Part shown: positions 1,847-24,106 of the stretch, piece by piece | How positions within the stretch are numbered: the stretch's first letter is position 1 | Layout: each line of letters opens with the position of its first letter | From: a virus | Reading direction: 5' to 3' (one strand) | DNA: 24,442 nucleotides | Virus record (IMG/VR): IMGVR_UViG_3300020205_001992 | Location: 1-24,442 of that record | Program-made: the position numbers and the translations under genes | The notes under the pieces: generated by a model | Told to the model about the DNA's origin: nothing | Database searches by the model: none | Seen by the model: only the letters and a program-made list of their open reading frames with translations

Positions 1847-1854
1847 TATAAATA
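1847..1854 (+). promoter_or_regulatory. T4-late-like promoter element TATAAATA upstream of scaffold
   Basis: TATAAATA is identical to the core of the T4 late promoter recognised by the gp55 sigma factor. It lies 44 bases before the scaffold start, in the 74-base gap after the preceding gene. Expected transcription start is about six bases downstream, near 1860. No -35 element is evident. It belongs to the family of TAAATA elements found only before starts in this window. Confidence 0.6.
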
Positions 1855-1860
1855 AAACAC

Positions 1861-1886
1861 CAAGGTAATCTTCGGACCCTTGTTTT
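1861..1886 (+). promoter_or_regulatory. Leader hairpin with C(UUCG)G loop
   Basis: CAAGG (1861-1865) pairs with CCTTG (1878-1882). After a small internal loop, TC/GA closes a UUCG tetraloop (1871-1874), an exceptionally stable loop type. TTTTA follows. The hairpin would form the extreme 5' end of a transcript starting at the TATAAATA element. It might stabilise the scaffold/capsid mRNA, or act as a weak terminator or attenuator for read-through from the portal operon. The five-pair outer stem is short for a strong terminator. Confidence 0.45.
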
Positions 1887-1898
1887 ATTAGGAATTTT

Positions 1899-3035
1899 AT
1901 GACAACTGAGATCACGCCTAATGCCCCCGCAGGCACGGCCAATGACACACCCGCAGTGTTGGAAGGAATAATTGCTGAAAAAATGGCCGCTATGCGTAAC
2001 CAAATTCAGGCAACCAGACAACCCGCAACAGGAGCAGAAGCATCGGCAGATGAATCCAGCCCTGCAGTGCCACAAACACTGGAAGATGAAACCGACTATG
2101 ATCAAGATGTACTTGCCACTGATGAGGACCACGCCCAGGACAATCCTGTAAGCGACCCAGACGCAGAAACAACAGGTGAAGATCTCATAGACTTTATTGA
2201 ATTTGCGGATACCAATCCCAATGCCAAATTCAAGTTTACCAGAAATGGTAAGGAAGTCGTGATCGACGCCAAGAAGGCAGCAGCCATCCTGGGTCAAGGA
2301 GGTGCCATACACGAAGAAGCACGCCAGTTAAAAGTGGAGCGAGCCGAGTTTGATGAGTATCTCAAAGAAAGTCGGGAACGCCAAGAAGGTTTAACTCTGG
2401 CAATGGAGTTCACAGTCCAGCCGCAACTTCAGAAAGCATATGATGAGATCTTGAAAACTCAAGGTTATCAGACTGTTTTCCAGCAACAACTTGCAGCCAC
2501 GCAAGATCCAGGTGTCCGAGCCCGGATTGAAGCCAGCATGCGACAGAATGAAAGTTATATTCAGTCACAGCAAGGTGTTATTGGACAGATGAAACCCGCA
2601 GTGGACCAGTTCAGAGACATACGCCGACAACAAGTAGCGGAAGTATTAGAGCGTAATCGCAAGGGGTTTACAGATAAAGAGTTGAAAAACGAATATGTGT
2701 ACAACGAACTGCGTGACAAAGTCGCAAAGATATGGCCTGAAGCCCGTGCCGAGATTATCCCAGGTATTCCCAACATTGACCTGATATCATCTGATGAGAA
2801 CTTGTTGGCCCTGGTGCGTGACGGTTTGAAATACCGCAACGCAAGTAAACCCAAGTCAGCAGGTGCCAGCATAGCACAACTAACACAGCGTAGAGGCAAC
2901 ACCCAGGCTGGACGAAATTCAGAGGGCAGCATCCAAAAACTTCGAGAGCAAGCCAACGCCGGCGATAAAAAAGCCGGAGACAACCTCCTGGTGCAGCGAC
3001 TACAACAGATACGCGGCAGCAGAGGTGGTAGATAA
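1899..3035 (+). CDS. Capsid scaffolding protein
   Basis: This 378-residue protein lies directly before the major capsid gene, the usual place for scaffold. It has an acidic, low-complexity N-terminal third (many Asp/Glu, Ala, Pro and Thr to about residue 95), a central charged and Gln-rich helical region likely to form coiled coil (about 130-260), and a basic, Gly/Arg-rich C-terminus ending RGSRGGR. An acidic front and basic, coat-binding tail are the standard design of phage scaffolds such as P22 gp8, which direct shell assembly and then leave or are degraded. The start at 1899 has AGGA five bases upstream. No protease motif is visible. The function is inferred from position and composition rather than a conserved domain. 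Confidence 0.75.
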   Translation: MTTEITPNAPAGTANDTPAVLEGIIAEKMAAMRNQIQATRQPATGAEASADESSPAVPQTLEDETDYDQDVLATDEDHAQDNPVSDPDAETTGEDLIDFIEFADTNPNAKFKFTRNGKEVVIDAKKAAAILGQGGAIHEEARQLKVERAEFDEYLKESRERQEGLTLAMEFTVQPQLQKAYDEILKTQGYQTVFQQQLAATQDPGVRARIEASMRQNESYIQSQQGVIGQMKPAVDQFRDIRRQQVAEVLERNRKGFTDKELKNEYVYNELRDKVAKIWPEARAEIIPGIPNIDLISSDENLLALVRDGLKYRNASKPKSAGASIAQLTQRRGNTQAGRNSEGSIQKLREQANAGDKKAGDNLLVQRLQQIRGSRGGR

Positions 3036-3061
3036 TAGCCTAATATTCAAGGAGAATTAAA

Positions 3062-4234
3062 ATGGCAGAAATTACAACCAGTCAAATTGGTAATGGTACC
3101 ACAGCATACGGCAGTGATATTGTTGTCAAAGACTTAGACTTAGATGTATCCAATCGTGTAAAAGACGATACCCCCGTGCTCAACATGTGTATGAGCAAGA
3201 AACGCAAGGTCAATTCAACATTGCCTTTGTGGACAGATGACCTGTATCGTTTGCCTTCCGCACAAGCCGTGCAAGAAGGTGCCGCAGTCTCAACAGCCAA
3301 TGCCGAAAGCAACAGCCGCTACAACTTGGGCAACTACACACAGATCTTCCAAACAACCATTGCTGCTTCTGGCACAGCCCGTGCTGTGATGCAAGCAGGT
3401 GGCGATCCTCAAGCATATCAAGAAGTCAAGCAATTGATCGAATTGATGTTCGATGTGGAAATGCAACTGGTTCGTGCTGACCAAATTGGTACACAATACA
3501 GTGGCCAAGCAGGCACAGCAATCAGCCCTGCCACTGCACAGACCGAAGGTCGTCGTATGGGTTCATTGGCTTCCTTTGCAGGTACATTGAGTTTCAACCC
3601 CAGCAACGCTGGTGCAGCCAACATCACCACCAACACCAACAATGCCAGTTCTGACTCAAGCACTGCCAATGTGGGTAACCTGTTGATCAACAGTAATGGT
3701 ACACAGTTCTACACTGGCACATTTACAAACCAAGTGTTTGCACCTGTCACATACAAGCAACTTGTGACCACTGCTGAACAACGCTACAATGCAAAAATCC
3801 GTACCATGGTTGTTCCAACTTCTTTGCGTACAATGATCTCTGACACCATTGGTACTTCTAACACCAGTATCAACCGTCGTAATGTGGAGCGTGGCGACAC
3901 CATCCAAACTTACGAAGGCGACTTCAACTACACATACGAAATCTATGATTCATGGATTATGGACCAGTCAGGTGTGAGCAACAGCATCTACTTCTTGAAC
4001 GAAGATGTGTTGCAGTGGGGTAGTTTGCGTGATCTTGGACCCAACAATGAAGTGTTCAGCAATGCCGACGCAAGTCTTGATCAGTTCTTGATGGAAGGTA
4101 CCCTGATTGTACGCAACCCAGCAGGCGTTGGTTTGTTGAACAACATTTCAACAACTGGTGCGGCTGTGACAGGTCCTCGTACTGCTACATTTGTGTCACG
4201 CACAAATGAAGGCGGCGGCGACAGTTATGTTTAA
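3062..4234 (+). CDS. Major capsid protein, SU10/DUF5309-like
   Basis: This 390-residue protein has the hallmarks of the DUF5309 (SU10 major capsid) group, which has the HK97 fold: an N-terminal segment (residues 20-60) ending in LPLWTDDL, the stretch NLGNYTQIFQTTIAASGT (about 88-105), a helix QAYQEVKQLIELMFDVEM (about 117-134) and GRRMGSL (about 163-169). It would form the icosahedral shell. A strong AAGGAG (3049-3054) with seven bases of spacing precedes the start, as expected for the most abundant virion protein. The gene is followed immediately by a strong intrinsic terminator, so scaffold and capsid form one transcription unit. A Thr/Asn/Ser-rich insertion at about 180-220 could be a surface-exposed loop. 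Confidence 0.88.
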   Translation: MAEITTSQIGNGTTAYGSDIVVKDLDLDVSNRVKDDTPVLNMCMSKKRKVNSTLPLWTDDLYRLPSAQAVQEGAAVSTANAESNSRYNLGNYTQIFQTTIAASGTARAVMQAGGDPQAYQEVKQLIELMFDVEMQLVRADQIGTQYSGQAGTAISPATAQTEGRRMGSLASFAGTLSFNPSNAGAANITTNTNNASSDSSTANVGNLLINSNGTQFYTGTFTNQVFAPVTYKQLVTTAEQRYNAKIRTMVVPTSLRTMISDTIGTSNTSINRRNVERGDTIQTYEGDFNYTYEIYDSWIMDQSGVSNSIYFLNEDVLQWGSLRDLGPNNEVFSNADASLDQFLMEGTLIVRNPAGVGLLNNISTTGAAVTGPRTATFVSRTNEGGGDSYV

Positions 4235-4246
4235 ACCGTAAGGTTT
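4233..4246 (+). other. Small hairpin overlapping the capsid stop codon
   Basis: AAACC (4233-4237) and GGTTT (4242-4246) form a perfect five-pair stem with a GTAA loop (GNRA type). It begins within the TAA stop of the capsid gene and lies 11 bases before the terminator stem. It may help protect the capsid mRNA 3' end or be incidental. Confidence 0.4.
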
Positions 4247-4257
4247 GGCAAAACACA

Positions 4258-4277
4258 AAAGGGGCTTTGGCCCCTTT
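4258..4277 (+). terminator. Intrinsic terminator after major capsid gene
   Basis: AAAGGGGC (4258-4265) and GCCCCTTT (4270-4277) form a perfect eight-pair stem around a four-base loop, followed by CTTGTT. On the opposite strand the stem is followed by TTGTGTTTT, so it could work in both directions. It separates the head operon from the small gene downstream. Confidence 0.85.
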
Positions 4278-4281
4278 CTTG

Positions 4282-4310
4282 TTGACTTCTCAATCACAAA
4301 CATTTATAAT
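4282..4310 (+). promoter_or_regulatory. Sigma70-type promoter P1
   Basis: TTGACT (4282-4287), a 17-base spacer and TATAAT (4305-4310) give a near-consensus promoter with an exact -10 and optimal spacing. Transcription should begin near 4316-4317. It starts just past the upstream terminator, so it appears dedicated to the small gene at 4426. Confidence 0.75.
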
Positions 4311-4312
4311 GT

Positions 4313-4348
4313 AAAGACGACGCCGCTGGTCAGACGGTTTCTGTCTTT
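4313..4348 (+). other. Structured leader between the two promoters
   Basis: AAAGAC (4313-4318) can pair with GTCTTT (4343-4348). Inside, CCGCT (4323-4327) can pair with AG and CGG (4332-4337) with one bulged A. The stem begins at or just before the predicted P1 start site, so a P1 transcript may carry only part of the outer stem. It could be a leader structure or a short RNA; there is no direct evidence for either. Confidence 0.3.
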
Positions 4349-4359
4349 AGCCTTTTCAG

Positions 4360-4388
4360 TTGCTAATGTATCGTCACGACTGTATAAT
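4360..4388 (+). promoter_or_regulatory. Sigma70-type promoter P2
   Basis: TTGCTA (4360-4365), a 17-base spacer and TATAAT (4383-4388). The -10 is exact and the -35 matches four of six consensus bases. Predicted start is near 4395, about 30 bases before the small gene. It lies 78 bases downstream of P1. Confidence 0.6.
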
Positions 4389-4425
4389 AGATACTAATGC
4401 GAGAGCAGATATAAAGGACTTGAAA

Positions 4426-4608
4426 ATGGCAAATAAAGAAAACACAACTTATGATGGTTTGATTGAACTATCAAACAGCATTGACAATCTATCAACTGAG
4501 TTGAATCCCAACAACAAAGGAGGAGAGACGGTAGGTGATTGTCTATACGACATTGCTTATGCGTTCAGTAGGATAGCAGATGCCTTGGAGAAGATAGCAG
4601 ACAAATAA
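4426..4608 (+). CDS. Small hypothetical protein in a self-contained unit (moron-like)
   Basis: A 60-residue protein starting MANKENTTYDG. I chose the ATG at 4426 because AAAGGA (4413-4418) lies seven bases before it; a longer in-frame start at 4360 would overlap promoter P2. The C-terminal half (DIAYAFSRIADALEKIADK) looks like an amphipathic helix, suggesting a small helical, perhaps oligomeric or regulatory, protein. The family is not recognised. The gene has its own two promoters and a terminator on each side. Several codons that are uncommon in the neighbouring structural genes (AGG, ATA, CTA, GGA) appear. This arrangement is the signature of a moron: an independently transcribed cargo gene that often serves the host or blocks other phages. 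That role is an inference. Confidence 0.75.
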   Translation: MANKENTTYDGLIELSNSIDNLSTELNPNNKGGETVGDCLYDIAYAFSRIADALEKIADK

Positions 4609-4611
4609 ACC

Positions 4612-4631
4612 AAAGCCCCGAGAGGGGCTTT
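4612..4631 (+). terminator. Intrinsic terminator after the small gene
   Basis: AAAGCCCC (4612-4619) and GGGGCTTT (4624-4631) form a perfect eight-pair stem with a GAGA (GNRA) loop, followed by TCATT. It begins four bases after the stop codon and insulates the small gene from the next gene. Confidence 0.85.
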
Positions 4632-4665
4632 TCATTGGGAGTTGCTGGCGTATTTGCTGGTATCA

Positions 4666-4672
4666 CTAAATA
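4666..4672 (+). promoter_or_regulatory. Late-promoter-like element CTAAATA
   Basis: The extended word CACTAAATA (4664-4672) is repeated exactly at 18920-18928. It ends only four bases before the ATG at 4677, and no Shine-Dalgarno is present between them. If it acts as a -10-like late element, transcription would start at about the ATG, giving a leaderless mRNA. It directly follows a terminator, so the downstream genes need a new promoter here. Confidence 0.55.
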
Positions 4673-4676
4673 CAAG

Positions 4677-5270
4677 ATGAACGAAGATTTAAACCGACCA
4701 GAATACCTATCCGATGAGGATCCAGAGAAAAACTACGACTATTTGCGTCAAGATCACGGCGGCACAATCACCACGCACAATGGTGTGGCTGATGCCCTGC
4801 TGAAAAATGATGCCCTGTACAACGCAATGAAGGGCGATTGGACCCGCACTGCTTGGTCAGGCTCAAACAACATCAAAACCACCACAGGACGCGAAGATGG
4901 CAAGTTCTACATCAAACGAGAACAAGTCAACGCAGAAGCAGTGGCCGAACGCTGTAGACTGTATCGCGAAGCAGCCGAAGCAGGACACAACGATCCCTTG
5001 GCACCAGTCATGCCTGATGGCAAGTTAGGCTACAAATGGATGGACTTGCCCAATGTGGTCAGCATCCGCATCAGTGATCAGTATTTTGGTGGCATGCCCT
5101 GGGCTGCTGTAAAAAATGACCGCACACTCAAAGCACAATTCTACCGAGTTGTGCAACAAGAATACCCACAGTATGTGTGCTATCCAGGCGGTAAGTTGCC
5201 TATTCCAATAGATGTGCCTTACCCATCAAAGGTGGGGCAACAAAAGTTCTTTAAGGGACACACACTATGA
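4677..5270 (+). CDS. Hypothetical protein, probable head/neck-region gene
   Basis: This 197-residue soluble protein has no domain I recognise. The frame also reaches back to a TTG at 4635, but that lies against the terminator, so the ATG at 4677 (MNEDLNRPEYLS) is preferred. No Shine-Dalgarno precedes it. Visible features are an acidic N-terminus, a basic helical middle (about 75-105) and an aromatic- and proline-rich C-terminal part with YFGGMPWAAVKNDR and VCYPGGKLPIPIDVPYP. Its stop overlaps the next start as ATGA, implying translational coupling with the probable head-tail adaptor, so a role in the same head-completion step is plausible. Confidence 0.75.
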   Translation: MNEDLNRPEYLSDEDPEKNYDYLRQDHGGTITTHNGVADALLKNDALYNAMKGDWTRTAWSGSNNIKTTTGREDGKFYIKREQVNAEAVAERCRLYREAAEAGHNDPLAPVMPDGKLGYKWMDLPNVVSIRISDQYFGGMPWAAVKNDRTLKAQFYRVVQQEYPQYVCYPGGKLPIPIDVPYPSKVGQQKFFKGHTL

Positions 5271-6013
5271 GTTTCCAAATCCCCACAGGTGATGACCTGG
5301 TTGACTTCCTGAAAGATTTCACAGGATCCAGCGATGATGCTGAAATCAAAAAATGTATCTACATGGCAGAACTGTCAATGCGAAACATTGAACTGCCAGC
5401 CCTACGGTCAGATCCATATGCGGCAGAAAACATTGGTGTAGCAGATGCTTACGGGCGTGTGCCCATTCCGTCAGACATGAACAAGCCCATTCTGTTTTTC
5501 AAACAAGGACAGCCTGGCGGTGAAGAATCATCGCCTACAGGGCCTTGGATTGTGTATGATCGTATTGGCGACAGAGATGTCATAACACAGGGCATGATTG
5601 CCCAGTTGTACTTGAGCCCTGTAAATGTGCCGGCAGTGATTCGCGGCAAGTTTTCAGAAGTGTACAATGAATACCAGTTCCTGCCCTGGGTTGGCGAAGG
5701 TGCCTTAATCAATCTTTACTACTACAAGGCCTGGCCCTTGTTGTTCTCACCTGTCACAGGTGGAGATCCTGGTGAAACAGTGCAGACCAATGCGGTGTTG
5801 CAGACCTGGGCTGAAGGCTATGTGTATGCCAGCCTGCGTGAATACTACATCAAGCGTCACAACGAACAAGACGCTGCCATTTACGATGCCAAATACAAAG
5901 ATGCTTGGAACATTGTGAATGACCAAAACAATCTTGGCAAATGGTCTGGCGGACACACAAGACTCACCAGTGTTTGGCAGCCCCGTCAATATCGCCAGTA
6001 CAACATCAAATAA
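5267..6013 (+). CDS. Probable head-to-tail adaptor/connector protein
   Basis: A 248-residue protein beginning MSFQIPTGDDLVDFLKDF. It lies after the capsid gene and before the fibre and hub genes, where podoviruses usually keep the adaptor that stacks on the portal (P22 gp4-type function). Visible features are an N-terminal helical region, a mixed central region with GPWIVYDRIGDRDVI and YNEYQFLPWVGEGALINLYYYKAWP, and a helical C-terminal part (LQTWAEGYVYASLREYY) rich in Tyr, Trp and charged residues. Helical hairpins plus small strands suit an adaptor, but I see no diagnostic motif. AAGGGA precedes the start, which overlaps the upstream stop by four bases. Confidence 0.5.
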   Translation: MSFQIPTGDDLVDFLKDFTGSSDDAEIKKCIYMAELSMRNIELPALRSDPYAAENIGVADAYGRVPIPSDMNKPILFFKQGQPGGEESSPTGPWIVYDRIGDRDVITQGMIAQLYLSPVNVPAVIRGKFSEVYNEYQFLPWVGEGALINLYYYKAWPLLFSPVTGGDPGETVQTNAVLQTWAEGYVYASLREYYIKRHNEQDAAIYDAKYKDAWNIVNDQNNLGKWSGGHTRLTSVWQPRQYRQYNIK

Positions 6014-6023
6014 GGAAAGCATC

Positions 6024-8975
6024 GTGGCCACAACCAGCAGTTCAAATTTTACCAGTTTATATGGAGCCAATGCCAGTCCCATAGTGCCCGCCGTACCATA
6101 TGGCAATGCCAATGTGGTTTCATTGTTGGCCGCATCAACAGATGGTAGCAACACCATTGGCAACATCTCAGCCACAGGCAACATTGCCGGCACATACTTT
6201 TTGGGTAATGGAAGTCAACTCACCGGATTGCCTGCCACTTACAGCAATGCCAATGTGGCCACATTCCTGGCAGCATTTGGTTCCAACACCATTGTCACAA
6301 CTGGCAATATCACTGGCGGATACATTTTTGGCAATGGCAGTCAACTAACTGGACTGCCTGCCACTTACGGCAATGCCAATGTGGCTGCCAACTTGGCAGC
6401 ATTTGGTTCAAATCCCATATCAACCACAGGCAATATCACTGGCGGTAACTTGTTTGGTAATGGTGCAGGTATAACAGGTATCACTGTCACATCCGGTACA
6501 CAAATTGTAAATGGCACTTCAAATGTAAGTGTCACACTCAACGGCAATACCACAATAGGCGTGGCCAATGTCACACAGGCTGAGATCAGCAGTCAGGGCA
6601 TCAGTGCTGTGGGCAATGTTACAGGAAGTTATTTTTTAGGTAATGGAAGTCAACTCACAGGCTTGCCAGCCGTATATGGCAATGCCAATGTAGCAGCAAA
6701 TCTGGCAGCATTTGCCAACAATCCCATATCCACTACTGGCAATATCACTGGTGGTAATATATTAGGCGGAGCCAATGTCAATGCTACCACCCACACAGGT
6801 ACTACTGTGAGTGTGAGTGCAAACATAACTGGTGGCAATATATTAACTGGTGGTTTGATCAGTGCCACAGGCAATATCACTGGTGGCAATATATTAACTG
6901 GTGGTTTGATCAGTGCCACAGGCAATATCACTGGTGGCAACCTGAGTGGCACCAGCATTGTGGGCACATTGACCACAGCAGCACAAACCAATATCACAAG
7001 TGTAGGCACATTGGGCAGCCTGGCTGTCACAGCCAACATTGCTGGTGGCAATCTGACCACTGCTGGACAAGTTTCAGCCACAGGCAATATCACTGCCTTC
7101 AATTTTATAGGTAATGGTGCTGGACTTACAGGTATCGCTGTGAGTGGTGGCACACAAATCATCAATGGCACCTCAAATGTTAGCGTAGCATTAAATGCCA
7201 ACACCACAGTGGGTGTGGCTGGCACCACAGTTGCCACATTTAGTTCAACTGGCATGGTTGTTCCTGGCACAGTCACTGCTCAGACACTTGTTACTTCAGG
7301 TGTTACTGGTAATATCACTGGAGTTAATTATCTTGTTGCCAATATTGTTAACACCACAGGTGTAATCAGTGCTGGTGGCAACATCACTGGCAGCAACATT
7401 GTGACAGGTGGCATAGCCAGTGCCACAGGCACAATAACAGGTGGCAACTTGGTCACTGGTGGCACAGTTTCAGCAACTGGCAACATCACAGGTGGCAATG
7501 TGGCCACTGCTGGTGTTATCACAGCCACAGGCAACATCACAGGTGGCAATGTGTCCACTGCTGGTCTAATTACAGCAACTGGTACAATAACAGGTGGCAA
7601 TGTGGCCACAGGTGGCACAGCCAGTGTTACTGGCAACATCACAGGTGGCAATGTGTCCACTGCTGGTGTTATCACAGCCACAGGCAACATCACAGGTGGC
7701 AATGTGGCCACTGCTGGTGTTATCACAGCCACAGGCAACATCACAGGTGGCAATGTGGCCACAGGTGGATTGATCTCAGCAACTGGTAATATTTCTGGCA
7801 ACTATTTTGTTGGCAATGGATCAGCACTCACAGGTGTCGCAGCCGCTACTGCCAACTCTGCAGTGTATCTGCGTGATGCGTCAAATGCTGCTGCTTATGT
7901 GAATGTGAATGACAGCAACAAAATAGTAAATTTGCCTGGTGGTGGATTTATATCTTACACAGGTGATGGCGTGGATCCCAACACATTTGGCAGCATTGAC
8001 ATTGTGAATCCACAAACAAACTTGGCCAATGCGTATTCAGCCCTGACATTTATTAATGCTGCAAACTTTGCAGCCAATCCGCTCAACACGGTAAATCTGA
8101 GTAACGGTGGTATATTTGTAGCATATGATCTCCTTGGCACAAACAAACAATATAATGTGGGACCTGCAGGTGTTGTAACCAATACCACACTATCAGCAGC
8201 AGGCAACATCACAGCACCATATTTCCTGGGCAATGGATCAGCACTTACAGGAATAGTAGCAACCGTGGTTGGTACATTGGCCAGTTTGAGTGTGACAGGA
8301 AATGTGGATGCAGGCAATCTACGCACAGCAGGACAAGTCAGTGCCACAGGCACAATTACAGGTGGCAACCTGGCCACAGGCGGAACAACCAGTGCTGTTG
8401 GAAATATAACAGGTGGCAATATTGCGTCAGGTGGCACAGTTTCAGCAACTGGCAACATAACAGGTGGCAACATAGCCACAGGTGGCACAGTTTCAGCAAC
8501 TGGCAACATAACAGGTGGCAATGTGGCCACAAGTGGAACAACCAGTGCTACAGGCAACATAACAGGTGGCAATCTTGTCACAGGCGGTCAAGTTACTGCA
8601 ACTGGCAATATCACAGGTGGCAATCTTACAGGAGTCAGTGGCAGTGTTGCCACAGGCATCATCAACTACAAAGACTATGTGGCCACCATTACCTATGCCG
8701 CAACCATCACACCCAACATTGCGTTGGGCAGTATTCAACAGGTCACACTCACAGGCAATGTCACAATGAATGCGTTTGGTGGCACACCACAAGCAGGACA
8801 AAGCATGGTAATCAAGTTCATTCAAGATGCCACAGGTGGTCGCACACTGACATCAACAATGAAATGGGCCGGAGGCGTGAAAACTCTTACAGGCACAGCC
8901 AATGCTGTTGATATAGCCAGTGTGTTCTATGATGGAACCACATATTACGCAAGTTTAACCAACAATTATTCATAA
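6024..8975 (+). CDS. Large repeat-built tail fibre/adhesin
   Basis: The best start is GTG at 6024, with AAGGAAA (6012-6018) five bases upstream. An ATG at 5919 would overlap the adaptor gene by 95 bases. The 983-residue product is almost wholly repeats: 17-residue units around SATGNITGGNVATGG in several arrays, and longer units with GNGSQLTGL plus an Asn/Ala-rich linker; GNGS/GNGA-LTG occurs seven times. Such Gly/Asn/Thr repeats fit an elongated beta-helical trimeric shaft. The C-terminal ~100 residues (TLTGNVTMNAFGG, GGRTLTSTMKWAGG, VDIASVFYDGTTYYASL) resemble a compact beta-sandwich often found at phage fibre ends, likely the receptor-binding head. No chaperone-of-endosialidase peptidase domain is visible. 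A role in adsorption is inferred. Confidence 0.8.
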   Translation: MATTSSSNFTSLYGANASPIVPAVPYGNANVVSLLAASTDGSNTIGNISATGNIAGTYFLGNGSQLTGLPATYSNANVATFLAAFGSNTIVTTGNITGGYIFGNGSQLTGLPATYGNANVAANLAAFGSNPISTTGNITGGNLFGNGAGITGITVTSGTQIVNGTSNVSVTLNGNTTIGVANVTQAEISSQGISAVGNVTGSYFLGNGSQLTGLPAVYGNANVAANLAAFANNPISTTGNITGGNILGGANVNATTHTGTTVSVSANITGGNILTGGLISATGNITGGNILTGGLISATGNITGGNLSGTSIVGTLTTAAQTNITSVGTLGSLAVTANIAGGNLTTAGQVSATGNITAFNFIGNGAGLTGIAVSGGTQIINGTSNVSVALNANTTVGVAGTTVATFSSTGMVVPGTVTAQTLVTSGVTGNITGVNYLVANIVNTTGVISAGGNITGSNIVTGGIASATGTITGGNLVTGGTVSATGNITGGNVATAGVITATGNITGGNVSTAGLITATGTITGGNVATGGTASVTGNITGGNVSTAGVITATGNITGGNVATAGVITATGNITGGNVATGGLISATGNISGNYFVGNGSALTGVAAATANSAVYLRDASNAAAYVNVNDSNKIVNLPGGGFISYTGDGVDPNTFGSIDIVNPQTNLANAYSALTFINAANFAANPLNTVNLSNGGIFVAYDLLGTNKQYNVGPAGVVTNTTLSAAGNITAPYFLGNGSALTGIVATVVGTLASLSVTGNVDAGNLRTAGQVSATGTITGGNLATGGTTSAVGNITGGNIASGGTVSATGNITGGNIATGGTVSATGNITGGNVATSGTTSATGNITGGNLVTGGQVTATGNITGGNLTGVSGSVATGIINYKDYVATITYAATITPNIALGSIQQVTLTGNVTMNAFGGTPQAGQSMVIKFIQDATGGRTLTSTMKWAGGVKTLTGTANAVDIASVFYDGTTYYASLTNNYS
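6831..6932 (+). repeat. Perfect 51-bp tandem duplication in fibre gene
   Basis: Two adjacent, base-for-base identical 51-bp units (6831-6881 and 6882-6932) encode a repeated 17-residue block containing GGNILTGGLISATGNIT. Identity at synonymous positions indicates recent duplication or gene conversion. Confidence 0.9.
7368..7775 (+). repeat. Array of eight 51-bp units in fibre gene
   Basis: Eight in-frame 17-residue units, consensus S/TATGNITGGNVATAGVI, run from 7368 to 7775 and end in a different capping unit with GNYFVGNGSALTG. Units three and seven are nearly identical in DNA, suggesting repeat expansion or exchange. Confidence 0.88.
8289..8645 (+). repeat. Array of seven 51-bp units in fibre gene
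   Basis: Seven 17-residue units with consensus SATGNITGGNIATGGTV directly precede the C-terminal head domain. The period is exactly the same as in the upstream arrays, so unequal crossing-over between arrays could change fibre length in multiples of 17 residues while keeping the frame. Confidence 0.88.
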
Positions 8976-8976
8976 C

Positions 8977-9774
8977 ATGTTTGCATCCCGATTTGCATTT
9001 CAATCACCACAACAGTCCACAAGCAATGCTCGTCGTGCGGGCACTGCCAGCACCAATGCCAGCCTAACCTGGTTTAATGAATTTAATGTTACTACCAGTA
9101 CCACACAATACAAGTTTGGCACAGCCAGTGAAAGATTGGCCGTAGATTCTCAGGCCAGATCTCGCATCGACAGTGCCAACACCACAATTGGTAATTGGGG
9201 TACCACGGATTTTACCATTGAATGTTACATTTGGTTAGATAGTAGAAGCAATCATAGTAAGAGCAGTGATGCCCACAGTCATGACACCGATTATGGATTT
9301 GCATTTCGCCTGGCCCAAAGTTTTGATGCAAATACTACCAATACTATTACTGACAAATTGAGTATTTTTGCCCGCGGTCGGGCTGACTTGGATTACTGGA
9401 CCTTGCCCACAAACTGGCCCACAGGTCAGTGGAATTTTGTGGTAATTCAACGCAAGTCAGGATCATTTGCGGCCTGGGTCAATGGCACTGTGTTGCCCAA
9501 AAGCAACGCATCCAGCAATTATAATTTTGGCACAGGCAGCGGCCGTATTCGTATTGGCTCGGCTGCCGGCAGCGACAGTGGCCTGGGATCAATTTCTGGC
9601 AGCGACTATGTCTACATTGATGAGTTTTGTATGTCAGACACTTATCGGTATGATAACCCCAATGCTGACATTCCAGTGCCCACAGCCCCTTTCACGGTGG
9701 ACAGTTATACAGTGCAGTTGATGCACATGGATGGCTCAAACGGTGGCATCACATTTACCAACGCAACCAGTTAA
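8977..9774 (+). CDS. LamG/concanavalin-A-like lectin domain protein (tail adhesin)
   Basis: This 265-residue protein has the strand pattern of a LamG-like jelly roll: DFTIECYIWLD at about 78-88, then QWNFVVIQRKSGSFAAWVNG at about 151-170, and RIRIGS near 190 with a VYIDEFCMSD strand near 210. Such domains bind carbohydrates or form capsid and tail decorations. There is no signal peptide. The gene starts two bases after the fibre stop and has no clear Shine-Dalgarno, so it is probably translated by coupling with the fibre gene. I infer a virion surface adhesin, perhaps attached to the fibre. The sugar target is unknown. Confidence 0.7.
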   Translation: MFASRFAFQSPQQSTSNARRAGTASTNASLTWFNEFNVTTSTTQYKFGTASERLAVDSQARSRIDSANTTIGNWGTTDFTIECYIWLDSRSNHSKSSDAHSHDTDYGFAFRLAQSFDANTTNTITDKLSIFARGRADLDYWTLPTNWPTGQWNFVVIQRKSGSFAAWVNGTVLPKSNASSNYNFGTGSGRIRIGSAAGSDSGLGSISGSDYVYIDEFCMSDTYRYDNPNADIPVPTAPFTVDSYTVQLMHMDGSNGGITFTNATS

Positions 9775-9783
9775 GGATGAACA

Positions 9784-10062
9784 ATGTATTATAGATTGAG
9801 TTGTATCATAGCAGACGGCACCATACGCGGTTATCAATGGCGTGAGATTGATCAGTCATTGTTTGTGAGCATAGCCACAGGTCAACGACCCATAGGCGAC
9901 GCAGATGCACAACTACGCAATGAGGTCGGCAGAGATGACAGGTTTGATGGATCCACAGTATGGTATGGACATGTGTGGGCAGATGGTTGGGTCACTGATG
10001 TTGATCAAACCACTGCTGAACAGTTGTATCTCACAGTGGGTCGCGAGACCCCAGGAGCATAA
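9784..10062 (+). CDS. Small hypothetical protein in the adhesin cluster
   Basis: A 92-residue protein (MYYRLSCIIADGTIRGYQW) with AAGGA just before its start. It is rich in aromatic residues and Asp, with no membrane segment, and is probably a small beta-rich protein. I do not recognise the family. It lies nine bases after the lectin gene and two bases before the glycine-rich gene, so it is co-expressed with the adsorption genes and may be a minor tail or fibre-assembly component. Confidence 0.7.
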   Translation: MYYRLSCIIADGTIRGYQWREIDQSLFVSIATGQRPIGDADAQLRNEVGRDDRFDGSTVWYGHVWADGWVTDVDQTTAEQLYLTVGRETPGA

Positions 10063-10064
10063 AC

Positions 10065-10901: not shown

Positions 10902-10913
10902 GGTAAACAACAA

Positions 10914-15450: not shown

Positions 15451-15455
15451 TCAAG

Positions 15456-15462
15456 TTAAATA
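15456..15462 (+). promoter_or_regulatory. Late-promoter-like element TTAAATA
   Basis: TTAAATA ends seven bases before the ATG at 15470 in a 19-base intergenic gap that holds no Shine-Dalgarno. By analogy with T4 late promoters, transcription would start at or next to the ATG. It would begin the ejection-protein transcript. Confidence 0.5.
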
Positions 15463-15469
15463 TACGACT

Positions 15470-15844: not shown

Positions 15845-15848
15845 CACT

Positions 15849-18800: not shown

Positions 18801-18890
18801 TTTGGCCTACAGCAGATGTACACACCCACTGACCTCAATCAATACTTGAATCAGTTCACACAATCATCTGGGCCTGTGGCACCAAGATAA
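15849..18890 (+). CDS. Large internal virion (ejection) protein
   Basis: The 1013-residue protein starts at 15849 with AAGGAT six bases upstream; an in-frame ATG at 15780 lies inside the previous gene. Residues 18-50 (DTILAHINPAEAAML, GGSGTLNPETGLPEYG) form a motif I associate with internal or structural proteins of podoviruses. Residues 75-148 are strongly hydrophobic and Ala/Gly-rich, with room for two membrane spans. Residues about 200-600 are helical with repeated 'G-L-S-x-x-Q-I' type units, and about 707-907 are Pro/Thr-rich with a 20-residue tandem repeat. The C-terminus is Tyr/Gln/Pro-rich. This fits a protein packed in the head and ejected to form part of the trans-envelope channel. 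Function is inferred from layout and from the neighbouring transglycosylase gene. Confidence 0.65.
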   Translation: MSMMALAQQLQSQGRGGDTILAHINPAEAAMLESRGGSGTLNPETGLPEYGFFSDLWDGVKSVWNDTVVPTVRKLAPVIIPAVAIFFPAAIPAIGAWFGATGTAAAVVGTAALSAGVTLASGGTLEQAIAGAALGAAASYITPILGAKANALLGAQLSPAVQSYLGSALVSGGISAARGGSVRDVFTAAATGAATAYLGSLAKNYYQSLNDKIQTNQLNITQKTADSSLMVAADAETYKKAGLTEAQVARALMSQGVNQEHADLAAKSIVANNSAEQTALIIAEYSGKNGNSVYNSQLGKDAIAESVTLGNNTDILLRAEDASIMAQDAVALKAQGLSQAQIKSHLQASGATEYYATEAAKMAANGADVAKIADFVQQRAQYNSNTSSYTAPGAGGQVYNNTEYVVPREIGQVMNEQQQILADSIPLRDLINSNQVTVEQAATLASSDYTADQVRTLLDVGYDSADLADLAAVGMPPSTLTTLAKTQFGENQINDLFEAGATANDIATASRIVDRGQLDVGTATQLLSKDIGGGTIDNLVRQGSAQTVANSNLSGATVNALSGNGWDLNKAVALQNSGVDVNQLINNNEWKAYNQLASAPTGPAGTVPVRDAAGRVSYFEAATGNTLDASGRVITYARAPEVGGGTQTAGIGDVGVEVAGRPGKVGQESAVRGPLTPGNVLASDADIDSGRATFNDAANAWEMPAQAPESEYTYTTPPGETVGPPTPPANEYTYTTPPGEFVGPAQPPTTSPVTPPTQVTPTPLPPVAPPVSAVPPWMPDGSVKYGEQNGAPIFVTPGGELYTGTGDLLGNVTPPGQTMGPPAPPATQPPLSPLVPGDSTPRPPVVNVDITQPPPLTPLQPTPVNPPAPVTPVVVEPPVTPPAGPAPVEVITPPTPYVPVPTPPVGEDPATKFKGYGPITPLMFGTAGQVNNPGLNPGFIQPSPYYNTTSPVQSQYYYGQRPYQPGPVFDQALYNQVPNAPAVPFGLQQMYTPTDLNQYLNQFTQSSGPVAPR
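17979..18098 (+). repeat. Two 60-bp tandem units in the Pro-rich region
   Basis: Two adjacent units of 20 codons each begin EYTYTTPPGE and continue VGP with Pro-rich endings. A related PPGQTMGPPAPP segment lies further on. They form an extended Pro/Thr linker in the large internal protein. Confidence 0.85.
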
Positions 18891-18921
18891 CACTACAAAA
18901 AGGCGAGAAATCGTGAACACA

Positions 18922-18928
18922 CTAAATA
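18922..18928 (+). promoter_or_regulatory. Late-promoter-like element CTAAATA
   Basis: CACTAAATA (18920-18928) is identical to 4664-4672. Here it lies 22 bases before the ATG at 18951, leaving room for a short leader containing AGGAG (18939-18943, seven bases from the ATG). Confidence 0.55.
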
Positions 18929-18950
18929 TTAAACCAGCAGGAGAAGCACA

Positions 18951-19676
18951 ATGAGTTTTGGAAAATCAGGTGGCACACAAGTGACCACACCAGAGTTGAC
19001 ACCCGAACAGCGTCAACAAATACAAGCACAAAATCAGTTTTTTACTGAAACCATTGCTCCCACATATCAAGGTGCTGTGAAAGGTGCCACAGAACTGTAC
19101 AACACAGGTGCTCCTGGTGTGACCAAAGCAGCACAAAACTTGGCTGGCACAGCATATCAAGGACAAGAAGTACTTGGATCAACAGGTGAAAGTGCCCTAC
19201 GCACAGGCATCACAGGCTTGCAAAGTCTGTTTGATCCCAACTATGAACGCCAGCAACTGGACGCAGCACTGATGCCTGCTCAAATGCAATACCAACAAAA
19301 TTTGGCCAATCAACAGGCAGCATTTGGTGGTGCTGGCAACTTGGGGTCAGCCCGCAGTGCCTTGGCACAACAAGCATTAGCAGGACAAACACAAGCACAA
19401 CAACAAGCAGCCGCAGCCGGCGTGCTGAGAGACATTGCTGGTCAACGAGCCGGAGTTGGCTCAACCCTGGCACAGTTAGGTCAAGGCGGACTTGGTCAAG
19501 CCATTGGTGCTGCTGGTCAAGGTGTTACTGCCTCAATGGTGCCACAAGATTTATTCAACAAATACGCTGGTGTGATCTTTGGAACGCCCACAGCCAGTTA
19601 TAATCCAGACTTCAGTGGCACGCAAGGCAGCAGAATAAGCAAAACTGGCTACAATGTCGGCGTTGACTTCAAATAA
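18951..19676 (+). CDS. Gln/Ala-rich internal virion protein
   Basis: A 241-residue protein with a helical, Gln- and Ala-rich middle (about 85-165, including YERQQLDAALMPAQMQYQQ, ALAQQALAG and QTQAQQQAAAAG) and a Gly-rich region with short hydrophobic patches (about 165-200). Its size, composition and place between the large ejection protein and the transglycosylase protein resemble smaller ejection proteins such as T7 gp14 or P22 gp7. It has its own promoter-like element and a strong ribosome-binding site. No enzyme motif is visible. It may line or initiate the ejection channel; this is inference from context. Confidence 0.6.
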   Translation: MSFGKSGGTQVTTPELTPEQRQQIQAQNQFFTETIAPTYQGAVKGATELYNTGAPGVTKAAQNLAGTAYQGQEVLGSTGESALRTGITGLQSLFDPNYERQQLDAALMPAQMQYQQNLANQQAAFGGAGNLGSARSALAQQALAGQTQAQQQAAAAGVLRDIAGQRAGVGSTLAQLGQGGLGQAIGAAGQGVTASMVPQDLFNKYAGVIFGTPTASYNPDFSGTQGSRISKTGYNVGVDFK

Positions 19677-19687
19677 GGTATAACATA

Positions 19688-22432
19688 ATGGATTACACAA
19701 CAGATGCAATGGGAAATTATCAAGGCGATTATGGTGCTGTAGATCCCTACGCTGACGAAACAGAAGAACAACGGCGTTTGAGACTTCAGCGTGAAGCCCA
19801 GGCAGCCGCACAAACACCAGCACCCCCAGCACCTGTGGCACCCACGGTTGAAAAACCTCGTCCAGTCAAACAAACCATAACAACTGATCCTCGCACTGGC
19901 CAACAGACCATGAAGATTGAAGGGTCAGTCGAAGACTTGAGTGCTGCCAATCCCAACACACCCACAGTGATGCCGCCCAACTTTGATCGGATGTTGCAGG
20001 TAGAATCTGGCAACAGAGATTTTGATGCACAAGGTCGTCCCATTGTTTCGCCCAAAGGTGCAAGATATGCAGCACAAGTGATGCCTGCCACTGCTCGCGA
20101 TCCAGGATTTGGTGTGCGACCTGCTGCAGATGACTCACCTGCTGAAAGCAATCGTGTGGGCCAAGACTACTATCAGGCCATGCTCAACAAGTATCCAGGT
20201 CAACCTGAATTGGCTCGTGCTGCTTACAATGCTGGACCAGGAGCAGTGGATGCTGCCATCAAGAAATCCATGATGCAGGGCGGATCACCCCTGGACTACT
20301 TGCCAAAAGAAACACAAGGTTATGTGCAAAAAACTGGCGGCCAAGTACGCATGGAAAATGGAAAAGTAAAAGTTGGAGCACCGGCACAACAACAACCAGC
20401 ACCTGAACCTGTGGTCACAGCACAACAATTGGGCAGCCAAACATTTCCAATGACTGCTGCTCCAGCACCTGTTGCACCTGCTGAACCAGAACCCATGGCT
20501 GCACCAGAACCACAAAGTCCATACAGTCTGGCTTCAGGTCAACCCAGCCAAGGTTTGCAAATGCCAGACCAAGCACCGTCACCTGCTGCCATGCCTACTG
20601 CGGGTGCATTGCCTGCGGCACAACAACGCTTTCAAGAAATACAGGATGATCCTGGTGCATTATTGGCCTATCGCAATGACACTGCCGTACCAGAAAACCT
20701 ACGCAGACGAGCCGGTGAACGGGCTACTGAACTGCTGAACACAGAACGCAACTTGTCCAGAGCCGAAGCCCGCAGAGATGAACTGATTGCTTCGGGTGAT
20801 GGCAAAGCCATTGCCAATGCCATGCAAGGTCGTGGAGCCAAAGGCGAAGAAGGCTCTTGGTTGAAGTTTGTGTTTTTGCGAGCCATTGACAACCGCATGG
20901 CAGATGTAGAAGCAGAAAAACTGGGTCTATTACCCAGCAAATACGAGCAATCAACCATTGCCAATGCTGATGGCACACAGACTGCTATTGAAATCAAAAA
21001 ATCCAGTTCAGGCAAAGTACAAGAAGCCTACCGTATGGATGGTACACCACTGACCACAAAAGAACTCAACACATTGAATTCTGGTGCTAACTTGGACATT
21101 GTGGGCGGCACTTATGTAAATGACGCCACTGGTGAAGTTGGTCGTGTGGTCACAGACAAGAAAAATCCAACAATTAGTTATGTTCAAACTGACAAAGGAC
21201 GCAAGCCATTGACTGGTTTCCGTCCACAAAGCAGCGGCGGCAGTTTAGAACAACAAAATGTCACTCAACAACAACAGTTGACCAACAAACTGCATTATGA
21301 GCCTGCTATTGCTGCTGCCAGCAAAGGTGCCAGCACTCTTGCTGAATACAATGCTCGCGAAGGCACAAACTTTGCTATTGCTGGTCGCGACAGTCTGGGA
21401 CGCCCATTGGTGGTGGATCAACGCAGTAATCAAATGTTGCAAGCACCTCCTGCAGCACCTCCTGCAGCACCTCCTGCAACATCTGGTGGATCTGCACCTG
21501 CTGTTCAAAGCACAGCACCTGTGTCACCAAACGCAATGCCAGGTGTGTCTGGTAGCACACCAGGTGCAAGAGACAGAGCCGCAGAACAATTGAAAGCAGA
21601 ACAACAGGCAGCACGAGATGTAGGCACAGCAGAACAAAAACAATTTGTTGAAAAGGTCATGCCTGAAATACAGAAAAAAGGCGAAGATGGCAAGTTCATT
21701 GCTGACACACGCAGAACACAAGTGGGCATGCTGACAGGTACCAACAGTGCCATAATGGGCATATACCGTGGTTCAGGCACAGGCTATGACAAGGCTCGTG
21801 CTGTGATTCGCGACGCTGTGTCAGGTGCCTACAGTGGTGAAGAAGGTGGAGTCAAACTCAGTGAAGACCTACGCGGTATTTCAATTCCAGAAGAACAACT
21901 CAGTGCCTTGAAAGAATTCACACAACTCAACACAGGTATCAATGCCAAGACCTTGGCTGAAAATGCAGGCGAAGGTCCCAAATCTGATGCAGACATGAGA
22001 TTGAACCAAGCAGCCAACATGACCAACATTGGTGACTTGCCAGCGTATGCTGCACTCACAGGATTGACACGCAGTCAGTTTGCGGGTGACATCAACAAAC
22101 GCAAACAAGACTTCTTGAACGCCAACAGAGATACTTACAAAACGCAATCACAATTGGAAGGTGCCTGGTCAAAAGAAAAAGACATGTTGAATCGTCAATA
22201 CGAATCAATCTACCGAGCCAGACTCAACTACATTGATGCACAAATGGTGCAAAAGTTTGGTCAAGATTGGCGTAAGAAACCCAATGATGACACACAGGCC
22301 TTCTACAGAAATGCCAGCATACACAGTTTCAATGTGTTGCCAACACCCAACTACGATGTACAAACACAAAAGTTTGTGTATCCAACACAGCAATCAAAGA
22401 TAGCCGCAATGCGGGCCATTACAGGAAAATAA
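19688..22432 (+). CDS. Internal virion protein with lytic transglycosylase (SLT) domain
   Basis: A 914-residue protein. Residues about 97-190 are an SLT-type lytic transglycosylase domain: MLQVESGN, with E106 as the likely catalytic glutamate, then SPKGARYAAQVMPATARDPGFG (about 121-142) and AYNAGPG (179-185). This cleaves peptidoglycan glycan strands, as in the T7 gp16 N-terminus, to let the phage DNA pass the cell wall. The rest is long helical and linker sequence: a Pro/Ala-rich linker (about 230-300), charged helices (about 310-420), an APP-repeat linker near residue 590, and a helical C-terminus. A Gly-to-Ala change in the usual G-L-x-Q-V-M-P block (RYAAQVMP) is tolerated in many relatives. 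AAGG is about ten bases before the start. Confidence 0.85.
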   Translation: MDYTTDAMGNYQGDYGAVDPYADETEEQRRLRLQREAQAAAQTPAPPAPVAPTVEKPRPVKQTITTDPRTGQQTMKIEGSVEDLSAANPNTPTVMPPNFDRMLQVESGNRDFDAQGRPIVSPKGARYAAQVMPATARDPGFGVRPAADDSPAESNRVGQDYYQAMLNKYPGQPELARAAYNAGPGAVDAAIKKSMMQGGSPLDYLPKETQGYVQKTGGQVRMENGKVKVGAPAQQQPAPEPVVTAQQLGSQTFPMTAAPAPVAPAEPEPMAAPEPQSPYSLASGQPSQGLQMPDQAPSPAAMPTAGALPAAQQRFQEIQDDPGALLAYRNDTAVPENLRRRAGERATELLNTERNLSRAEARRDELIASGDGKAIANAMQGRGAKGEEGSWLKFVFLRAIDNRMADVEAEKLGLLPSKYEQSTIANADGTQTAIEIKKSSSGKVQEAYRMDGTPLTTKELNTLNSGANLDIVGGTYVNDATGEVGRVVTDKKNPTISYVQTDKGRKPLTGFRPQSSGGSLEQQNVTQQQQLTNKLHYEPAIAAASKGASTLAEYNAREGTNFAIAGRDSLGRPLVVDQRSNQMLQAPPAAPPAAPPATSGGSAPAVQSTAPVSPNAMPGVSGSTPGARDRAAEQLKAEQQAARDVGTAEQKQFVEKVMPEIQKKGEDGKFIADTRRTQVGMLTGTNSAIMGIYRGSGTGYDKARAVIRDAVSGAYSGEEGGVKLSEDLRGISIPEEQLSALKEFTQLNTGINAKTLAENAGEGPKSDADMRLNQAANMTNIGDLPAYAALTGLTRSQFAGDINKRKQDFLNANRDTYKTQSQLEGAWSKEKDMLNRQYESIYRARLNYIDAQMVQKFGQDWRKKPNDDTQAFYRNASIHSFNVLPTPNYDVQTQKFVYPTQQSKIAAMRAITGK
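21443..21478 (+). repeat. Three perfect 12-bp units (APPA linker)
   Basis: GCACCTCCTGCA is repeated three times exactly in tandem, encoding an Ala-Pro-Pro-Ala linker within the transglycosylase protein. Such a repeat can gain or lose units in frame. Confidence 0.9.
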
Positions 22433-22433
22433 C

Positions 22434-23174
22434 ATGGAAGAAGAAGTCAAGAAACTACGCGAAGCCGGATTCAGCGATGAAGACATCAATGCGTACATGC
22501 AAGAACAAAAATCATCCAGCAGTAGCACAGCACCTGGTCCTGTGAGTCCTGAACAGTCTGCTGATGCTCCTGTGCGTGTGGACGAAACAGTGCCTGACTA
22601 TGGTAGCACACCTGAAACTTCTTGGAAAGAAACAATAGGCACATTTGGCACTGCTGTGGCACCTTATGCACTGCCAGTGGCCATTGGTGGTGCAGGCCTG
22701 TATGGTGCCAGCACACTCAAAAGTGGATTCAATGCCATGAAAGAAAGTGCTGCCGCAAGAACAGCACAGGCCAACGCACAAATGGAAATGGCAAAAGGTA
22801 TTCAGCAGCGATTTGATAAAACTCAACAAACGAGAGAAGCCAACGCTGCAGCCAAAGCAGCCAAAACAGCACCACGAACATTTGCATCAACTACATCACA
22901 AACTTACAATGTGCCTACCAGCAATGTTCCACAACCTGTCTCAATGCCTGCATCTGCACCGCCACCCACAACTGCACCACAGATAAGCAATGCTCGAAAT
23001 ATTGTGCAAAAATTGGCTTTGGACAAGATCTTGCCTGCCATGGGCAACATGGCCAGCAAAGCCTTGCCAGCAGCACAAGTGGCTGCGGGATTGTTCTACA
23101 CCAGCCCAGAAGAAATTGCCATACTAAAGGCAGCAGAAGAGAAAAAGAAACGAGCACAAGGTATTAAACGATGA
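22434..23174 (+). CDS. Small membrane-associated structural/ejection protein
   Basis: A 246-residue protein with an N-terminal acidic helix (KKLREAGFSDEDINAYMQEQ), a Ser/Pro linker, a hydrophobic Gly/Ala-rich segment at about 71-93 (TAVAPYALPVAIGGAGLYG) that could span a membrane, a Gln/Ala-rich coiled region (about 105-145), a Pro-rich linker and a second weakly hydrophobic region near 205-225. The GFS-type helix resembles units in the large internal protein upstream. AGGA precedes the start, one base after the previous stop. Together with its position this suggests another internal or ejected protein. The family is not recognised. Confidence 0.6.
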   Translation: MEEEVKKLREAGFSDEDINAYMQEQKSSSSSTAPGPVSPEQSADAPVRVDETVPDYGSTPETSWKETIGTFGTAVAPYALPVAIGGAGLYGASTLKSGFNAMKESAAARTAQANAQMEMAKGIQQRFDKTQQTREANAAAKAAKTAPRTFASTTSQTYNVPTSNVPQPVSMPASAPPPTTAPQISNARNIVQKLALDKILPAMGNMASKALPAAQVAAGLFYTSPEEIAILKAAEEKKKRAQGIKR

Positions 23175-23602
23175 ACACAGCAGACCAACTAACCCAGGTA
23201 TTCAACGACAACTTTGTGGCATACTTCCGCAGCCATTCTGCACACCTAAACATTGTGGGTAGAAACTTTAGATCGGATCACAAACTGTTGCAGGGTGTGT
23301 ATGAACGACGCCAAGCACAGATAGACACACTGGGTGAACTGATCCGTACAGTAGGTGAGTTTGCCCCGCGTAGCATACAGGAGATATTAGATGCAAGTGA
23401 AATTGAAGACAGCACAGTTGATGGCGATAGTGAAGACCTGTTGGGCACAGTGCGTGACAACCTTGAAAGCCTCCGAGGCTGCTATGAAGAACTCATGGCA
23501 GTGGCTTCAGCAGAAGGTCACGAAGAAATAGCCAACTATGCACAGGATCAAATCCTGGACTTGGCCCGGAGTCTTTGGATGCTGGATTCAACTTTAGACT
23601 AA
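23171..23602 (+). CDS. Dps-like ferritin-family protein
   Basis: A 143-residue helical protein that follows the Dps pattern: SAHLNIVG then DHKLLQGVYERRQAQIDTLGE and LIRTVGEFAP, ending in the ARSLWML helix. Aligned by eye to E. coli Dps, ferroxidase ligands H51, H63, D78 and E82 correspond to H25, H37, D52 and E56, whereas D67 is replaced by Q41. Dps proteins form 12-subunit shells that oxidise and store iron and protect DNA. There is no Lys-rich N-terminal tail, so DNA binding of the E. coli type is not expected. The start overlaps the previous stop as ATGA, coupling it to the ejection genes. It may store iron, protect virion DNA or bind host iron; which is unknown. Confidence 0.75.
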   Translation: MNTADQLTQVFNDNFVAYFRSHSAHLNIVGRNFRSDHKLLQGVYERRQAQIDTLGELIRTVGEFAPRSIQEILDASEIEDSTVDGDSEDLLGTVRDNLESLRGCYEELMAVASAEGHEEIANYAQDQILDLARSLWMLDSTLD

Positions 23603-24082
23603 ACGGCGGTAGCAATAACTGCCACGAACTGAGTAGCCAGCACGGCGATGCAGTTCCAAAAACCCCGCCTGCTCATGACGCATGGTGGTTGAACACACAA
23701 TACCAATGCCATACGCACGACACCAGGCTTCTTGGATGTCAATCATGTCCTGCACCAATCTAACTCTTGTGCGTTGACTCAGGGTCATGTCCACATGAAT
23801 CATGCGTGTCATGCTCATTTCCTCGTCTGACCACGGTGCTCGCTGATTGCGTATTGTCCACAGATAAGCCAAGATAACATTGGTATCCTGTGATTTAGCA
23901 ACAGTTAACAGTTCTGATCCCGGAGTGTAGAATTGGTTTACCACAGCAGTGGCCACATTGCGTGAATAGGCCACAGGATCTGGTACAAAGATATCGTCTA
24001 TCTCGTTTTGAAAGTGTGTTTGTGCGATTTGCATGATGGGCACTATGTCCCCACCTGCGGCTGGCAGCCATGTGTATTTCAT
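23594..24082 (-). CDS. GNAT-like N-acetyltransferase
   Basis: A 162-residue protein on the opposite strand. Its C-terminal half has the GNAT look: a strand TRMIHVDM (about 92-99), a helix after it, then YGIGIVCSTTM (about 124-134), QAGFLELHRRAGY (138-150) and a final strand SYCYRRL. The usual acetyl-CoA pyrophosphate loop (Q/R-x-x-G-x-G/A) is represented only by SQRTRV (102-107), so CoA binding may be altered or lost. Phage GNAT proteins of this kind are frequent near structural genes; their targets are mostly unknown. The gene has a TAAATA element five bases before its ATG and no Shine-Dalgarno. Its 3' end overlaps the Dps-like gene by nine bases, tail to tail. Confidence 0.65.
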   Translation of the reverse strand: MKYTWLPAAGGDIVPIMQIAQTHFQNEIDDIFVPDPVAYSRNVATAVVNQFYTPGSELLTVAKSQDTNVILAYLWTIRNQRAPWSDEEMSMTRMIHVDMTLSQRTRVRLVQDMIDIQEAWCRAYGIGIVCSTTMRHEQAGFLELHRRAGYSVRGSYCYRRLV

Positions 24083-24087
24083 GATTA

Positions 24088-24095
24088 TATTTATT
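24088..24095 (-). promoter_or_regulatory. Late-promoter-like element AATAAATA (minus strand)
   Basis: Reading leftward, AATAAATA is followed by TAATC and the ATG at 24082. The predicted start of transcription coincides with the ATG, and no Shine-Dalgarno is present. Confidence 0.5.
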
Positions 24096-24098
24096 CAC

Positions 24099-24106
24099 AA
24101 TAAATA
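24099..24106 (+). promoter_or_regulatory. Late-promoter-like element AATAAATA (plus strand)
   Basis: AATAAATA lies three bases from the identical element on the other strand, making a perfect eight-pair inverted repeat around CAC. It is 19 bases before the HNH start, with AAGGAG (24114-24119) between. Confidence 0.5.

Follow-up and report, generated by a model that had tools for sequence, protein, structure and literature searches.

In a clade of podovirus-like phages, transcription of the virion operons and of some accessory genes probably depends on a clade-specific promoter of the -10 type, which consists of a single element, R-[C/A]-TAAATA or sometimes TATAAATA. The window (24,442 bases of a virus record) and its relatives belong to this clade. 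We put the probability of this explanation as a whole at roughly 70%. At the level of genome comparison, the sequences themselves show the element and where it lies, its preference for the heads of operons, the limits of its clade and two promoter classes.

The portal and capsid proteins match the Pfam families SU10_portal and SU10_MCP, a type seen in the C3 podoviruses SU10 and phiEco32. There is no close isolate; among named records, MW202484, from an uncultured podovirus, comes nearest (61% for the capsid, 50% for the portal). A relative of the portal is encoded in 511 viral-contig stretches, of which the best 80 were fetched; 28 fuller records were read. Several records of 34–37 kb (G003, G017, G019 and G028) have ends that are identical or nearly identical over 70–190 bp and a circular gene order, hence the genome should be about 34–37 kb long. 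These records look complete and circularly permuted, the closure being inferred by us, as IMG/VR classes them as linear. The label freshwater is based on the spring from which MW202484 came and on our reading of the sample types. A search of 84,980 genomes of bacteria and archaea gave no integrated relatives that would assign a host. The available part of the portal protein (window 1–1464) is 84–90% identical among the relatives, whose other proteins are often 40–60% identical.

TAAATA in the window and in its relatives

TAAATA occurs six times in the window, at the positions, on the strands and in the extended forms given in the preliminary description. That description expected roughly a dozen copies by chance; this was an overestimate, as a dinucleotide-preserving shuffle yields 4.8 on average. 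Thus the number of copies is ordinary, and it is their placement alone that is unusual. All six copies lie 4–44 nt before a same-strand start codon, in agreement with the earlier statement that each is within about 50 bases upstream of a start. Two starts were corrected for these distances, ATG 4677 replacing the mechanically assigned TTG 4635, and ATG 24082 being taken on the minus strand.

The first copy is a part of TATAAATA (1847..1854, plus strand, TAAATA from 1849), the only perfect match in the window to the 8-bp T4 late box. It is situated 44 nt before ATG 1899 and is the candidate promoter of the scaffold operon. The scaffold-like gene (1899..3035, plus strand) is assigned its probable function by its position between the portal gene and the gene of the major capsid protein (3062..4234, plus strand, Pfam match to SU10_MCP, PF17236), and has a relative in MW202484. 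The second copy, CACTAAATA (4667..4672, plus strand), is a putative promoter of the leaderless class, 4 nt before ATG 4677 of p197, a conserved gene of the virion cluster (4677..5270, plus strand, with the start moved from TTG 4635). The copy with the weakest context, TTAAATA (15457..15462, plus strand), precedes ATG 15470 by 7 nt. In relative G004, CACTAAATA is found 5 nt before an ATG, following a gene resembling those of tail-fibre assembly. Another CACTAAATA (18923..18928, plus strand) is 22 nt upstream of ATG 18951 of the p241 gene and is followed by a Shine-Dalgarno sequence.

The last two copies form a perfect inverted repeat, TATTTATT-CAC-AATAAATA (24088..24106), that holds two divergent candidate promoters; a similar divergent pair is present in G004. 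On the minus strand, AATAAATA (24088..24093) would be of the leaderless class, 5 nt before ATG 24082 of a conserved 162-aa gene (23594..24082, minus strand). This gene was tentatively called GNAT-like by eye and has no PHROG or Pfam match. On the plus strand, AATAAATA (24101..24106) precedes ATG 24126 of an HNH endonuclease gene by 19 nt, with a Shine-Dalgarno sequence.

All six TAAATA copies are found no more than 55 nt before a start. For the other 14 A4T2 permutations, pooled, the figure is 17%; the nominal P of about 2.5e-5 was calculated once the motif had been selected. Since TAAATA was picked after reading the window, the real test is provided by the relatives. There, 85 of 401 copies are located 4–6 nt before the ATG of an open reading frame of at least 50 codons, 62 of them at exactly 5 nt. 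The other A4T2 permutations have 2–26 copies at 4–6 nt, though their totals are mostly higher, and TAAATA is the only one of them with a marked excess at this distance; it has a second mode at 15–28 nt. TAAATA takes second place when hexamers are ranked by the fraction situated exactly 5 nt from a downstream ATG, and it alone among the top five is not Shine-Dalgarno-like, the others being AAGGAA, AGGAGA, AGGAAA and GGAGAA.

Position is conserved in the block of the portal, p112 and scaffold genes. Of 70 loci scored, 68 have TAAATA in at least one of the two gaps on either side of p112, the small gene that follows the portal gene: in the second gap only (45), in the first only (19) or in both (4), with two loci having it in neither; ten further loci were left unscored, as a gene start was not found. 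The gaps flanking p112 change fast, yet TAAATA is kept there, mostly in one gap or the other.

In the aligned sites, collected with the TAAATA core as the search key, the two bases directly before the core are in most sites a purine and then C or A, where the T4 consensus has T and A. The alignment demonstrates no conservation of a -35 box, and the fifth base past the box is preferentially A or T. The flanking preference is equal in the two distance classes. Judging by the spacing, the peak at 5 nt is consistent with transcription starting about one turn downstream of the box.

Chance occurrence in A+T-rich intergenic DNA would agree with the ordinary total count (6 vs. 4.8), but other A4T2 hexamers behave differently, the position is conserved among relatives, and the pattern is absent from a sister clade of similar G+C content, considered below. 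We reject this explanation on the permutation controls and the sister clade, and regard it as hardly credible.

Operon heads, terminator-like hairpins and the scaffold leader

TAAATA marks operon heads. Counted by genome, it is observed no more than 60 nt before p241 in 19 of 19, before a family of HNH genes in 8 of 8, the portal gene in 24 of 28, the scaffold gene in 20 of 28, p197 in 19 of 25 and the GNAT-like gene in 17 of 23. It is absent upstream of TerL (0/28) and of other inner genes: p104 (0/26), p248 (0/23), p78 (0/21), Gly15 (0/21), lys915 (0/20) and fib18 (0/17). Some accessory genes have TAAATA too.

A terminator-like hairpin is found within 80 nt upstream of 24 of the 79 distinct near-ATG sites, compared to 4–8% in the other class and in the controls. 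In the window, a GC-rich hairpin (4612..4631), with a terminator-like score for the minus strand, is situated just upstream of the p197 promoter, and the arrangement is similar in relatives. If such hairpins terminate transcription, the p197 transcript must start downstream of them, and the box 4–6 nt before the p197 ATG is the sole conserved candidate for the start that we see. The T4 late TATA box lies about one turn upstream of the transcription start (PMC2988020); by the same geometry, a gap of 5 nt would place +1 at the A of the ATG and yield a leaderless mRNA. Many copies of the box thus predict leaderless mRNAs, which the preliminary description did not foresee. Transcription predicted to begin at the start codon is also a likeness to the mycobacterial leaderless promoters, whose TANNNT boxes are read by the host.

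The near class lies at the Shine-Dalgarno distance, so one may think of TAAATA as an element of translation initiation or RNA processing, e.g. a Shine-Dalgarno substitute 5 nt before the ATG. However, the second class, 15–50 nt upstream, has the same flanking consensus together with a Shine-Dalgarno sequence in the inspected cases, near-class sites often directly follow terminator-like hairpins, and it is the operon heads that are marked, the inner genes being devoid of TAAATA. Hence we consider a role in translation or processing very improbable, and retain the promoter reading.

Between the scaffold promoter and its gene, folding of the window yields a structured leader hairpin, CAAGG-UAA-UC-UUCG-GA-C-CCUUG (1861..1882, plus strand), that ends 16 nt before the scaffold ATG. 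The relatives (L007–L086) conserve the arrangement GGUAA-stem-loop-stem-CCC upstream of the scaffold gene. A stem of at least 2 bp can be formed in 41 of 44 distinct inserts, the maximum in 2000 shuffles being 15, and the covariation exceeds that in all 500 shuffles and in every slid register. In loci with the promoter in the first gap, the hairpin is kept and overlaps the end of the p112 gene. Rfam has no family matching at the gathering score, nor did the window leader match one at a relaxed threshold. The window leader folded alone is no better than shuffled sequences; the case for the hairpin rests on covariation. Its likely role is that of a translational operator of the scaffold gene, and it may bind a protein.

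Two further arrangements deserve mention as noncoding candidates. In L110 (from about 3099, plus strand) and L096 (from about 8034, plus strand), an orphan TAAATA is followed by a conserved noncoding stretch with long complementary arms GTGTAGTGAGAC ... GTCTCACTACAC, a candidate small RNA. In gene-poor regions of L092 (near 2909), G003 (near 7609) and G002 (near 9100), all on the minus strand, TAAATA precedes a sequence of the ATTGTCAG type, possibly another noncoding transcript.

A second promoter class and the sister clade

Promoters of a different kind are present in the same genomes. In the window, a sigma70-like promoter TTGACT-17-TATAAT (4282..4310, plus strand) precedes a small accessory ORF starting at ATG 4426. 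In the relatives, TTGAC is combined with a TANNNT-type box at a 17-nt spacer in 43 cases, compared to 9–24 for other spacers, and many of these spacer-17 sites precede accessory or replication-type genes.

The sister clade comprises 69 loci, whose portal, TerL, scaffold, capsid and p197 genes are homologous to those here. TAAATA is found upstream of 2.4% of starts there vs. 30% in the clade of the window, and at 5 nt from the start in only one case of 437. TATAATC is seen upstream instead, while the G+C content is similar. This argues against TAAATA being merely what sigma70 of these hosts prefers, although the two clades may have different hosts. A separate feature of gene content is a Ferritin/Dps-like protein (PF00210; window 23171–23602), kept by most members of the clade, whereas the sister clade yielded none; a Dps-family gene is present in phiEco32 too.

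These data bear on the possibility that the boxes are ordinary promoters of a host housekeeping or alternative sigma factor with an unusual -10 consensus, so that no phage factor is needed. Such an explanation would agree with the failure to find a phage sigma or a host, no relatives having been detected in the 84,980 genomes. On the other hand, canonical TTGAC-17-TATAAT promoters precede accessory genes in the same genomes, and TATAAT is what the sister clade demonstrates with the same virion genes. Moreover, sigma70 boxes follow the pattern T-12 A-11 T-7, and with +1 placed 6 nt past the TAAATA box, its conserved bases would not fit this pattern. Recognition by a host sigma factor is thus unlikely, and a phage-specific factor is the preferred reading.

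Known late promoters and the putative reading factor

The T4 late promoter TATAAATA is read by gp55 with gp33 and gp45, the cyanophage counterpart being NATAAATA (PMC2988020, PMC2984593). The match to the T4 late element put forward in the preliminary description holds for the TAAATA core, the lack of a -35 box and the T4-like spacing, but not for the preceding bases, which are mostly R and C/A instead of TA; furthermore, neither gp55 nor gp45 was found. The leaderless-type spacing of 5 nt is another departure from T4: in a 49-kb late region of that phage, TATAAATA boxes near starts are mostly 14–32 nt before the ATG, and none is at 5 nt.

The combination of podovirus-type virion genes with a T4-like late sigma, initially described as unusual, appears less odd given that phiEco32, whose portal and capsid are of a related type (SU10 Pfam families), has an analogous one-box late promoter. 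Its middle and late promoters, tAATGTAtA, have no -35 box and are read by its own sigma factor phi32_gp36; transcription starts 6–8 bp downstream of the element, and the early genes depend on host sigma70 (PMC8948821). The clade considered here shares the single element with no -35 box, but the conserved element is R[CA]TAAATA, no gp36 homologue was found, there is a large leaderless-type class, and the genomes are about half the size. The spacer-17 peak, with many of its sites before accessory genes, may be compared with the host-dependent early genes of phiEco32.

One published parallel was found for a T4-late-type motif in a phage with no gp55. In rV5, the late-gene motif TggTAaAAtA resembles the T4 late element in a phage devoid of gp55, gp33 and gp45 homologues; this is a different phage type with eight copies of a longer, looser motif, and no leaderless class is mentioned alongside the motif (PMC3606486).

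The T4-like late sigma factor suggested earlier was not detected in the window and the closed-map relatives by profiles, tblastn, phmmer or HHalign. The profiles of gp55 (phrog_234), another late sigma (phrog_12791) and Sigma70 region 2 produced nothing credible in 30 records, a single weak sigma-profile match of 13 bits falling within a 922-aa frame. In 11 records, there were no matches to Sigma70 region 4 and to the gp45 sliding clamp (PF02916), and none to the single-subunit RNA polymerase (PF00940), for which the positive control gave no match either. T4 gp55 and phiEco32 gp36 used as tblastn and phmmer queries, and HHalign comparison of 272 protein clusters with gp55, yielded nothing. As gp36 and gp55 do not detect each other by the same method, the failure to find a sigma factor is weak evidence. 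Similarly, the negative result for gp36 homologues is weak, the sigma factor of phage 7-11 sharing only 15% identity with gp36 (PMC8948821).

Individual proteins were considered for the role of the factor. p112, of the same length as T4 gp33, was rejected, as its predicted fold is like that of small proteins of many phages and not of a sigma factor; p262 was rejected because of a poor mixed alpha/beta structure model. The clade-specific p104 and p78 remain candidates.

The T4-like box and spacing, together with the failure to find an own sigma factor, might also mean that the phages have no factor at all, the late genes being read by gp55, gp33 and gp45 of a co-infecting T4-like phage. In line with this, some nearly closed relatives, e.g. 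G004, show no recognised replication genes. However, primase/helicase-type genes are present in other members, the T4 boxes are TATAAATA whereas -13/-12 here are mostly R and C/A, and no helper is known. We therefore consider such dependence highly unlikely, and it is, if anything, slightly less probable that these podoviruses, with no specificity factor of their own, have late promoters tuned to the gp55/gp33/gp45 of co-infecting T4-like phages. If true, this would be a bacteriophage counterpart of virophages using the late promoters of a giant virus. Regarding gene content, the map of G004 (L092 and L093) is almost closed with no recognised replication gene, and the variable block of other members contains Prim-Pol, DUF3987 or AAA genes.

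In the preferred reading, DNA would be opened at TAAATA, with no need for a -35 box, by an RNA polymerase that probably consists of the host core and a phage-specific specificity factor, and transcription would start about 6 nt downstream. With the box 4–6 nt from the ATG, the message would have its 5' end at the AUG or right beside it, and its translation would be leaderless, while with the box at 15–50 nt there would be a Shine-Dalgarno leader or a structured leader in between. Accessory and early-type genes would keep host-type TTGAC-17-TATAAT promoters, producing an early/late split, the late timing being suggested by gene content. Such promoters would work like those of T4 and phiEco32 late genes, but they cannot be filed under either system, because the defining sigma factor was sought and not found.

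The result is a promoter map for a widespread clade of uncultured freshwater phages. It points to an undiscovered specificity factor of RNA polymerase, and predicts leaderless late phage mRNAs with a spacing like that of T4, on a scale that T4 itself does not show. Finally, sister clades with the same virion genes and different promoter classes constitute a natural experiment in promoter switching.
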